Below are positions 1,856 through 44,310 of a DNA stretch of 64,000 bases, piece by piece. The DNA comes from Chloroflexota bacterium (GTDB taxonomy: Bacteria; Chloroflexota; Anaerolineae; UBA4142; SHND01). The stretch is taken from NCBI GenBank assembly GCA_029778615.1, contig JAKOPZ010000274.1, forward strand, positions 1-64,000, read 5' to 3'. Made by a program: the position numbers and the translations under genes. Below the pieces are notes generated by a model. The model was not told where the DNA came from. It worked only from the letters and a program-made list of their open reading frames with translations, and ran no database searches. Numbering within the stretch: the stretch's first letter is position 1; each line of letters begins with the position of its first letter.

Positions 1856-2684
1856 ATGGCAAATGTCGTTTCGAATGGCTTACATTGGTGTAGCCCAGTC
1901 TTCAATCCCGGCAACACTACCGCTCAGAAAGTATACAACAATACCTAATGTGCAACACTTTTGTCCTTTCGAGCGGAGCGAGAAATCTCGCAAGGCGCGA
2001 ATGAGATTTCTCGCAATGACGGCTCGAAATGACATTTGTCCCACAAAAGAGTTGCACATTGAGTATGCCCTCATTGTCGACAAGGCTGTACGCAGATTTG
2101 GAATTCGCAACTTCCAAGTCCTAAATGAGCTGAATCTTGAGTACGAGACAACGTGTGGGAGTCGAACAACAATTGGTGGTTATATGTATAACTTGGCATA
2201 CCACCTCAAGCGACGAGCAGTTCAAGCGGGCACTTACCCAATTTATTTGGGCTTTCCGGGTCCTGGAGGGTCAAAATTTAGTGATGCCAATTGGGGACCT
2301 TACTGGAATGACTATAAGACATTCATAACCCGTCCGTTAGATTTTGTAGCTGACTTTGCCTACAATTGGCTGGCAGTCCATGTTTACGGAACAAGCGAAG
2401 CGGAGTGTGAGCAAAATCTAATAGGAGCGTACGATGATTTAAGGGTAAGGATTCCGCAGTATCCTCATCGTTACACAGAGTGGAGTATTCCAAACGATGT
2501 TCCTAACCGGGCAGCTGCTATGGCATCTGCATTAAGGAGTTTCCGCAATCATGTCTTAAACCAAAACGATGTTGATGTCTACGCCCTTCACGCTTATATC
2601 TCAAGAATATCAGACCCTGGATCTGGCGGCGATAGATACGGGCTAACGCCAGGCGGAGGAGGGCAGGTTGCGGGTGTTTTTTAG
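1856..2684 (+). pseudogene. Glycosidase-like gene broken by a small palindromic element
   Basis: A strong ribosome-binding site (AAGGAGG, 1843-1849) precedes ATG 1856. The frame reads MANVVSNGLHWCSPVFNP and on to VYNN, then stops inside the inserted element at 1943-2064. After the element another frame continues (ALIVDKAVRRFGI, then LNELNLEYE, HRYTEWS, VYALHAY) to 2684. Removing 124 bases rejoins the two frames. The NE and TEW motifs resemble the acid/base and nucleophile strands of (beta/alpha)8 glycoside hydrolases (clan A-like); this is inferred from motifs only. The N-terminal part is too short for a whole barrel, so the gene may also be truncated upstream. AT-rich relative to neighbours. 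Confidence 0.55.
1943..2064. mobile_element. MITE-like palindromic element, copy 1 (about 122 bp)
   Basis: The ends are inverted copies of AATGTGCAAC (1947-1956 and GTTGCACATT 2051-2060). The interior is a second palindrome: CGAGCGGAGCGAGAAATCTC against GAGATTTCTC...CTCGAAATGAC. It carries no coding capacity of its own. A second, longer copy with the same ends lies at 43793-43935. No clear long target duplication is seen here; only AT flanks both sides. It interrupts the glycosidase-like gene at 1856. Confidence 0.75.
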
Positions 2685-13417: not shown

Positions 13418-14037
13418 ATATGTTTGTCATTTCGAACAGAGTGAGAAATCTCATTTTGCGCGCACGGTTGAGATTTCTCGCCTCCGCTCGAAATGACAGC
13501 TGGCGCGCAGGCTTGGTTCTCTTGACGGCGTTGAGCTTGCTCGTCGTCGCGTGCAGCGCTCCCTCTCCGTCAACTCCAACCGCTTCTGCCAAGCCCGAAT
13601 GGTTCGCGTACAAAATGGTTGATGTGCGAACAGGCGAAAGTTTCAGCATGAACGATTTTGCGGGCAAGGTAGTTTTGATTGAAACGATGGCAGAGTGGTG
13701 TCCGACGTGTCGCCATCAAGAAGACCAAGTAAAAAAATTGCACACGCTCATCGGAAACTCGTCCGACTTGGTTTCCATTAGTCTCGATGTGGATTTGAAT
13801 GAGGATGCCGCGTCGCTGCGAAAATACGCGGACGCGTTCGGCTATGATTGGTATTTTGCGATTGCGCCGCTCGAGGTGCAGCGCGCGTTGGGAAATTTGT
13901 ACAGCGCGCAATATCTGAATCCGCCGGTTGCGCCAATCCTTTTGATTGACCGCGAGGGAAAACAGTACGGCTTGCCGTACGGCGTAAAAAGCGCAGAGGC
14001 ATTGCAAAAAACTATCGCGCCGTATCTCGCGCGTTGA
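13414..14037 (+). CDS. TlpA-like thioredoxin-fold lipoprotein with repeat-derived N-terminus
   Basis: Extracytoplasmic thiol-disulfide protein (207 aa). The redox motif WCPTC (in EWCPTCRHQE) sits in a thioredoxin fold, with VAPILLIDREG as the cis-Pro region. The hydrophobic signal with lipobox VVACSAP lies about residues 33-48. The first ~28 residues (FVISNRVRNLI, RFLASARND) are encoded by a palindromic repeat (13426-13497), so the real start may be a later codon after the repeat. The ATGA overlap with the permease and direct coupling to CcdA suggest co-transcription. Likely role: reducing extracytoplasmic disulfides using electrons from CcdA. Confidence 0.85.
   Translation: MNMFVISNRVRNLILRARLRFLASARNDSWRAGLVLLTALSLLVVACSAPSPSTPTASAKPEWFAYKMVDVRTGESFSMNDFAGKVVLIETMAEWCPTCRHQEDQVKKLHTLIGNSSDLVSISLDVDLNEDAASLRKYADAFGYDWYFAIAPLEVQRALGNLYSAQYLNPPVAPILLIDREGKQYGLPYGVKSAEALQKTIAPYLAR
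13426..13497. repeat. GTCATTTCGA-type palindrome inside coding sequence
   Basis: The left arm begins GTCATTTCGAACAGAGTGAG and the right arm ends CGCTCGAAATGAC, with AAATCTC/GAGATTT pairing inside. It is the same family as 1962-2035, 14758-14849, 28367-28433 and the core of 43793-43935. It lies within the reading frame of the TlpA-like gene. Confidence 0.85.
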
Positions 14038-14739: not shown

Positions 14740-14757
14740 CTCATGTTACGCAGAATT

Positions 14758-14849
14758 GTCATTTCGAGCGGTCTTGCGAGAAATCTCGGTGGAAAAAACT
14801 GAGATTTCTCACAGAGTTTACCCCGAAGGAGTGAGGGGTTCGAAATGAC
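14758..14849. repeat. GTCATTTCGA-type palindrome
   Basis: The arms are GTCATTTCGAGCG...GAGAAATCTC and GAGATTTCTC...TTCGAAATGAC. It occupies half of the ccdA-araD gap and is intergenic. Same family as 13426-13497. Confidence 0.85.
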
Positions 14850-14892
14850 ATGCGTAAGGTGAATTTGTCATACGGATGCAAAGGAATCAATC

Positions 14893-28366: not shown

Positions 28367-28433
28367 GTCATTTCGAACGCAACGAGAAATCGGGGTTAAC
28401 ACAAAAGAGATTTCTCGCTCCGCTCGAAATGAC
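28367..28433. repeat. GTCATTTCGA-type palindrome next to a tandem array
   Basis: The left arm GTCATTTCGAACG...GAGAAATC pairs with GATTTCTCGCTCCGCTCGAAATGAC. Its right end (CGAAATGAC) runs straight into the 19-bp array, whose unit contains the same CGAAATGAC. Confidence 0.85.
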
Positions 28434-28634
28434 GGACAACAATCGGAATGACGCGCAACAATCGGAATGACGCGCAACAATCGGAATGACGCGCAACAAT
28501 CGAAATGACGCGCAACAATCGAAATGACGCGCAACAATCGAAATGACGCGCAACAATCGAAATGACGCGCAACAATCGAAATGACGCGCAACAATCGAAA
28601 TGACGCGCAACAATCGAAATGACGCGCAACAATC
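28428..28634. repeat. 19-bp tandem array, 11 copies
   Basis: The unit is AATGACGCGCAACAATCGA, with units starting every 19 bases from 28428 to 28618 (last one partial). The first unit has GGAC for GCGC, and the first three end CGG rather than CGA. Copies are otherwise near-identical, implying recent expansion. The array touches the stop codon of the aldo/keto reductase gene (28633-28635). Units are contiguous with no spacers, so it is not CRISPR. All frames through it are open in places, giving spurious cysteine-rich peptides. Confidence 0.95.
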
Positions 28635-42606: not shown

Positions 42607-43560
42607 ATGCAAACACCCACTTTCCTCGACATTTTGCGCGCCAAACAAACCATTGCCCCGCATTTGCCGCGCACGCCGTTGTTCAAATATCCCGCGCTCG
42701 ATGCGGCAACCGGGCTTGATTTGTACGTCAAACATGAAAATTATCAGCCGATTGGCGCGTTCAAAGTGCGCGGCGGCATCAATCTCGTTTCGCAGTTGTC
42801 CGACGATGAAAAAACGCGCGGCGTGATTTCGGCGTCAACGGGCAATCACGGACAATCTATCGCGTATGCGGCGCGTCTATTCAACGTTCCCGCAACGATT
42901 GTGGTTCCCGAAAATGCGAATCCCGTCAAAGTGGATGCAATGCGCGCGCTCGGCGCGACCATTATTTTTCACGGACCCGATTTCGATGCGGCGCGCGAAC
43001 ATTGCGAAGCGGTGGCAGAAGAAAAACATTTGCGTTATGTGCATTCGGGCAACGAGCCGCATCTCATCGCGGGCGTCGGCACGCATACGCTGGAAATTCT
43101 GGAAGACGTGCCCGATGTGGATGTAATCATTGTGCCCATCGGCGGCGGGAGCGGCGCGGCGGGCGCGTGCATTGCGGCAAAAGCGATTAATCCGAACATT
43201 CGCGTGATTGGCGTGCAAGCCGAAAAAGCGCCTGCCGCGTACAAGTCATGGAAAAATCGCGCGCTTCTTGAAGATACCAACGCGACCTTTGCCGAAGGAC
43301 TCGCAACGCGCACCGCGTTCGCGCTGCCGCAAAAAATTTTGTGGGAGATGCTCGACGATTTTATTTTGGTGAGTGAAGAAGCCATGCGCGCGGCGATTGT
43401 GATGTATTTGCAAAAAGCAAAAACATTGTCGGAAGGCGCGGGCGCGTCATCGCTCGCGGGCGCGCTGCAATTGCGCGAACAATTACAGGAAAGAAAAGTT
43501 GCGTTGATTTTGAGCGGCGGCAACATTACGCCCGAACAATTGAAACAGGTGTTGGCATGA
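42607..43560 (+). CDS. Threonine ammonia-lyase (PLP-dependent)
   Basis: Fold-type II PLP enzyme (317 aa) of the threonine/serine dehydratase family, making 2-oxobutanoate and ammonia from threonine. PLP lysine is in GAFKVRGG; other marks are the substrate loop STGNHGQSIAYAA and phosphate-binding IGGGSGAAG. The C-terminal ACT regulatory domain of IlvA is absent, so this is the short, catabolic type (or a serine racemase relative). ATG 42607 has a weak ribosome-binding site. Overlaps the next gene by ATGA. Confidence 0.88.
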   Translation: MQTPTFLDILRAKQTIAPHLPRTPLFKYPALDAATGLDLYVKHENYQPIGAFKVRGGINLVSQLSDDEKTRGVISASTGNHGQSIAYAARLFNVPATIVVPENANPVKVDAMRALGATIIFHGPDFDAAREHCEAVAEEKHLRYVHSGNEPHLIAGVGTHTLEILEDVPDVDVIIVPIGGGSGAAGACIAAKAINPNIRVIGVQAEKAPAAYKSWKNRALLEDTNATFAEGLATRTAFALPQKILWEMLDDFILVSEEAMRAAIVMYLQKAKTLSEGAGASSLAGALQLREQLQERKVALILSGGNITPEQLKQVLA

Positions 43561-44310
43561 GTGAGCGGAAAGCGGGTGACGCGCTCACGATTCGCAAAAT
43601 GAAATACCGCAATCCGGAGTTGTGGATGATGTGGCAGTGGGACGAAATCATTTGGCATGTCAACAATGAATTTTTTGTCGCGTTTGAAACACCAGGAAAA
43701 ATCTTTGAACGCCCGGACAAAACATTTATCGGAACGAATTATGCGTTGTTTTATTTTTATCCGAACCAACCCTTTTATTTTTATGAATTGTACCTAATGT
43801 GCAACACTTTTGTCATTTCGAGCGGAGCGAGAAATCTCGCAAGGCGCGAATGAGATTTCTCGCAAAACTTGTCCCGAAGCATTGAGGGAACGGCTCGAAA
43901 TGACATTTGTCCCGCGAAAGAGTTGCACATTGAGTGAATTGTATCTGCCGGAGCCGCCGCATCTCTTGAAAAGTTGGTATTGCAACATCAATGCTGTGCC
44001 GCAGCGCACACCCGACGGCTATGCGTTCATTGATCTCGACCTTGATATTTGGTTGTATCCTGATTTGACGTATGACCTTTTGGATGAGGACGAATACCGC
44101 GAACATGCAGACAAATATCAGTACACCAACGAGATGCGACAGACTGCGCGTTCAACGCTTGATACCTTGCGCGAGCGAATTGCGCGCGTCGAATTTCCAT
44201 TTCGGCATAATGTAAAAACGCTTGAAGCAGAAATTGAAACGTTAGGCAAACAATTCAACGCGCCCATCTCTACTCTCCAGTCACAAATCTCGAATCTCCA
44301 TGCTGCCTGA
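43557..44310 (+). pseudogene. DUF402 gene split by a 143-bp element
   Basis: The reading frame starts at ATG 43557 (overlapping the previous stop) and gives a DUF402-type N-terminus (WDEIIWHVNNEFFVAFETPG, NYALFYFYPNQPFYFYELYL). It then runs into the element at 43793. After the element the frame resumes as ELYLPEPPHLLKSWYCNINA and FIDLDLDIWLYPD...LLDEDEY, the DUF402 core. Deleting the element and one target copy (151 bases) restores a continuous protein of about 200 aa. Intact relatives are nucleoside diphosphate phosphatase-like or RNA-binding; as it stands the gene is probably inactive. The last residues overlap the next gene's start. Confidence 0.88.
43793..43935. mobile_element. MITE-like palindromic element, copy 2 (143 bp) with target duplication
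   Basis: Terminal inverted repeats AATGTGCAAC (43796-43805) and GTTGCACATT enclose the GTCATTTCGAGC-type palindrome. GAATTGTA is present on both sides (43785-43792 and 43936-43943), an 8-bp target duplication. There is no coding capacity, so a transposase would act in trans. Compared with the 122-bp copy at 1943-2064 it has about 20 extra bases in the centre (AACTTGTCCCGAAGCATTGA region). Confidence 0.9.

Follow-up and report, generated by a model that had tools for sequence, protein, structure and literature searches.

What has broken the DUF402-domain gene at positions 43557..44310 (plus strand) of the window, the 64,000-nucleotide stretch of Chloroflexota DNA analysed here? From 43785 to 43942 the window reads GAATTGT, then ACCTAATGTGCAACACTTTTGTC...CGCGAAAGAGTTGCACATTGAGT, then GAATTGT again, and the DUF402 frame as it stands meets a stop inside the intervening element, 98 codons in. 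Deletion of 151 bases (a 144-bp element plus one 7-bp copy of the repeat) yields a frame of 200 codons that reads ...FYELYLPEPPHLLK..., and the joined protein matches Pfam PF04167 (DUF402) with an E value of 3.3e-12. These results bear out a preliminary description of this DNA, according to which a DUF402 gene is split by a non-coding element, bounded by AATGTGCAAC as inverted repeats, and regains its frame once 151 bases are removed. An uninterrupted DUF402 homologue of 203 codons (L197) is found in another genome of the same genus (G001, contig C164), where the gene immediately preceding it is homologous to the upstream neighbour in the window and encodes a PLP-dependent enzyme. It aligns with the joined protein over the full length (101 identical positions in 203 columns), with no gap at the insertion point. 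The empty site that the preliminary description hoped to see in relatives was thus obtained in part, as an uninterrupted homologue in the same genus and not as an empty site of the same species.

The limits of the element can be read from its other copies. The host genome, a draft assembly of 372 contigs, contains 46 matches to the element, and 35 of these are complete copies with both flanks readable, the flanks differing between copies. Twenty-two of the complete copies measure 144 bp and 13 measure 122 bp; an additional 122-bp copy (L089) comes from G001, of the same genus, and stands outside the 35. The copy in the DUF402 gene occupies 43792..43935 on the plus strand and runs ACCTAATGTGCAAC...GTTGCACATTGAGT, its inverted ends being AATGTGCAAC. 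A second copy in the window, of the 122-bp class (1943..2064, plus strand), has no recognisable target duplication. In all 35 complete copies the element begins with A at both ends, but the base that follows the duplication is A in just 7 of the 30 copies with a clear duplication (one of the 30 coming from G001), so that the eighth repeated base at our locus is the terminal base of the element itself. The length of 143 bp and the 8-bp target duplication given previously therefore become 144 bp and 7 bp, the two copies of GAATTGT lying at 43785..43791 and 43936..43942.

Of the 35 complete copies, 29 lie between exact duplications of 5-9 bp, most often 6 bp, as the copy-by-copy listing called for in the preliminary description reveals. 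This is far above chance, since mispaired combinations of flanks, used as a control, gave a duplication of at least 5 bp in 7 of 1260 cases (0.6%). Among the other six copies, four have a duplication with a single mismatch and two have none, one of the latter being the other copy in the window. The duplications are AT-rich, with a G+C content of 27% vs 47% in the flanks. Because their length ranges over 5-9 bp among the copies of a single genome, it singles out no transposase family, and the suggestion that an 8-bp duplication narrows the families in question has to be withdrawn. In only 7 of the 35 copies does the insertion point fall inside a mechanical reading frame of at least 120 codons, whereas 81% of positions drawn at random from these flanks do so; insertion within a gene, as in DUF402, is thus the less common case.

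Seventeen of the 22 copies of the 144-bp class are identical in sequence, which indicates a recent spread, and the 122-bp copies are more diverse. Together with the target duplications and the uninterrupted homologue in the same genus, this gives good support to the view, already put forward in the preliminary description, that the frame was broken by a recent jump of a mobile element, here a gene-free one of 144 bp. A variant, ACTTTAGTCC, is common to two 144-bp copies (L022 and L062) and one 122-bp copy (L036); its presence in both length classes suggests gene conversion or repeated gain and loss of the 22-bp stretch. We also observed a 47-bp element (L199, G000:C269:993-1039) that consists of little beyond two IS982-type ends, ACCGAATGTGCAAC...GTTGCACATTGGGA.

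The assignment of the element to a transposase family was made by its ends, which point to IS982, instead of by the length of the duplication. The left end is ACCTAATGTGCAACACTTT (43792..43810, plus strand) and the right end is ACTCAATGTGCAACTCTTT (43917..43935, minus strand). Scanning 199 genomes of the class with an IS982 transposase model yielded L156, a locus found by transposase homology alone, in which the C-terminal coding sequence is followed after a few bases by ...AAAGTGTTGCACATTAGGT, an end identical to the left end of our element at 19 of 19 positions. A protein search of 396 genomes yielded L162, an intact IS982-family element of the same class, 1014 bp long and flanked by a 7-bp duplication (ATAGTTT), whose transposase of 296 aa matches NF033520 over the cut-off (E 9.3e-56) and also PF13612. 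Its end on the 3' side of the transposase agrees with our left end at 20 of 21 positions and its end on the 5' side with our right end at 18 of 19; even the A/T difference between the two ends at position 15 is kept. The IS982 element at L163 (304-2480), from the same group and class, likewise has ends almost identical to those of our element, with a 10-bp duplication and extra ORFs inside the ends. The extra ORFs, two in number (169 and 191 aa), look like an inserted IS630-type element.

IS982 partners with matching ends were found in G003 of the same genus and in G304, G324 and G040 of the class. In G003 the contigs break inside elements with ends RCCTAATGTGCRACTCTTT, and these ends adjoin IS982 transposase sequence (60% identity over the N-terminal 42 aa and 80% over the C-terminal 15 aa); to judge from these fragments, the putative autonomous partner type occurs in the genus itself. 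The IS982 elements of G001 and G005, both of the same genus, make no obvious partners, as their ends differ (ACTCTATCTATGGG in G001). Related elements with the ends of our element are present in G001 and in G008, a genome from another family of the order, and 6 of the 7 examined there have duplications of 6-8 bp with no more than one mismatch. The end was also seen in records from Anaerolineales and Thermoflexales. An exact 19-mer search of viral contigs and a blastn search of plasmids gave no match.

We conclude that the 144-bp element is a MITE with IS982-type ends, a new example of a kind that is already known. Its two length classes (144 and 122 bp) are below 300 bp and contain no transposase coding sequence, its terminal inverted repeats measure 14-19 bp, and no fewer than 35 complete copies are dispersed in the genome; MITEs usually, though not necessarily, share their genome with an autonomous partner. 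IS982 elements have AC ends, with the end consensus AC(N)6T(N)5TT, and their duplications, when present, vary from 2 to 10 bp (PMC7335449). In the 35 copies of the MITE all ends carry the terminal AC, except for one copy with AT at its left end. The AC and the T at position 9 fit the consensus; both ends have C at position 16, and at position 15 the left end has A and the right end T, and L162 departs from the consensus in the same way. The MITE resembles IS982-family insertion sequences (PMC7335449) in its AC termini, inverted ends of about 19 bp and variable duplications, but these are about 1000 bp long and encode a transposase, whereas the interior of the MITE is unrelated to the IS982 coding region. 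Since no DDE transposase gene lies inside it, the element is not filed as IS982 proper.

An IS982-derived MITE, MITECca01, was reported in Cardinium, where it derives from ISCca4 of the IS982 family (PMC9769881). Like our element it is short, lacks a transposase, has IS982 ends and exists in many copies. In contrast to it, MITECca01 is about 240 bp long, belongs to the Bacteroidota lineage and has its parental insertion sequence in the same genome; the Chloroflexota MITE has no parent in the assembly, and the repeat in its interior also occurs elsewhere. In a literature search on MITEs of Chloroflexi or Anaerolineae, titles and abstracts made no mention of the present element.

Is an IS982 transposase, then, the enzyme that moved it? 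The preliminary description proposed looking in the same genome for a transposase gene with the same terminal repeats. Searches of the assembly with PF13612, NF033520 and the L156 transposase gave no IS982 transposase, none of the ends inspected in this genome lies beside IS982 coding sequence, nor were they seen to adjoin a transposase of any other sort; the matching elements sit in relatives. The partner may have been lost from this genome or may have failed to assemble. The same result would suit a different DDE family (e.g. IS4, IS5 or ISAs1) whose ends are similar by chance, the more so as duplications of 6-8 bp are produced by several transposase families. However, an intact IS982 element carries both matching ends, down to the A/T difference, and in a relative of the same genus the stretch immediately within the same ends is IS982 transposase sequence. 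These matches largely refute the involvement of another family, which we regard as improbable.

The interior raises another possibility, that of a REP/BIME-type palindrome which owes its dispersal to recombination or to a TnpA-REP transposase (IS200/IS605-like, HUH), the inverted repeats outside it being incidental. The palindrome GTCATTTCGAGC...GCTCGAAATGAC (43812..43904) does occur 114 times in the genome when both orientations are counted, mostly outside the MITE, and the element folds far better than shuffled sequences (z -6.8), with a strong hairpin potential. Yet 29 of 35 copies carry target duplications, whereas HUH elements are not known to leave any, and the copies end exactly at the IS982-type ends; on these grounds such an origin of the whole element was rejected as very unlikely. 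An assembly artefact, or an insertion ancestral to the gene, might come to mind in a draft genome of 372 contigs. It is refuted by the 35 copies with differing flanks and by the same-genus homologue that aligns without a gap through the site, and we give it next to no credence. The MITE was thus very probably mobilised in trans by an IS982 transposase when it inserted into the DUF402 gene. According to this model, which we infer from sequence comparison, the transposase would bind the ends of about 19 bp, mobilise the element and integrate it where the DNA is AT-rich, giving duplications of 5-9 bp, mostly 6. Insertion into GAATTGT within the DUF402 gene would have broken the frame, and the transposase would have been lost from this genome, or would have escaped assembly.

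The least ordinary feature of the MITE is its palindromic interior, a dispersed repeat found across the order. Outside the MITE the palindrome is solitary or lies between other inverted ends, and one such copy (L229) has the ACTTGTCCCGAAGCATTGAGGGA stretch that separates the 144-bp from the 122-bp class. Copies of the core GTCATTTCGA...TCGAAATGAC without IS982-type ends are seen in the window at 13426-13497, 14742-14865 and 28367-28433, and at L214, L220, L229 and L230; they stand alone or between other inverted repeats, for instance AGGACTTTCGCTT and CTTACGCAT. At 28420-28630 of the window a core palindrome is directly adjoined by a tandem array of some ten 19-bp units (AATCGAAATGACGCGCAAC). 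Searching the literature for the core turned up unrelated papers only. Like REP/BIME-like repeats, the interior is palindromic and of high copy number; unlike them, the mobile unit is defined by target duplications and fixed IS982-type ends. With this in mind, one may tentatively speculate that the element is modular: a GTCATTTCGA core, which circulates in the order either by itself or framed by inverted ends of several unrelated kinds, may have been captured by IS982 ends and then amplified, with the core being exchanged between different ends.

Our analysis corrects the attempt to deduce a transposase family from duplication length, and gives an abundant repeat of uncultured Chloroflexota its exact boundaries, a list of its copies, statistics on its duplications and a transposase family. 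Within the literature searched, Chloroflexota is the second bacterial lineage for IS982-derived MITEs. With its shared palindromic core, the element is a tractable example for studying how MITE interiors are swapped between different transposon ends; if the modular reading is true, this core would be a repeat that spreads by borrowing, time and again, ends from different transposons.
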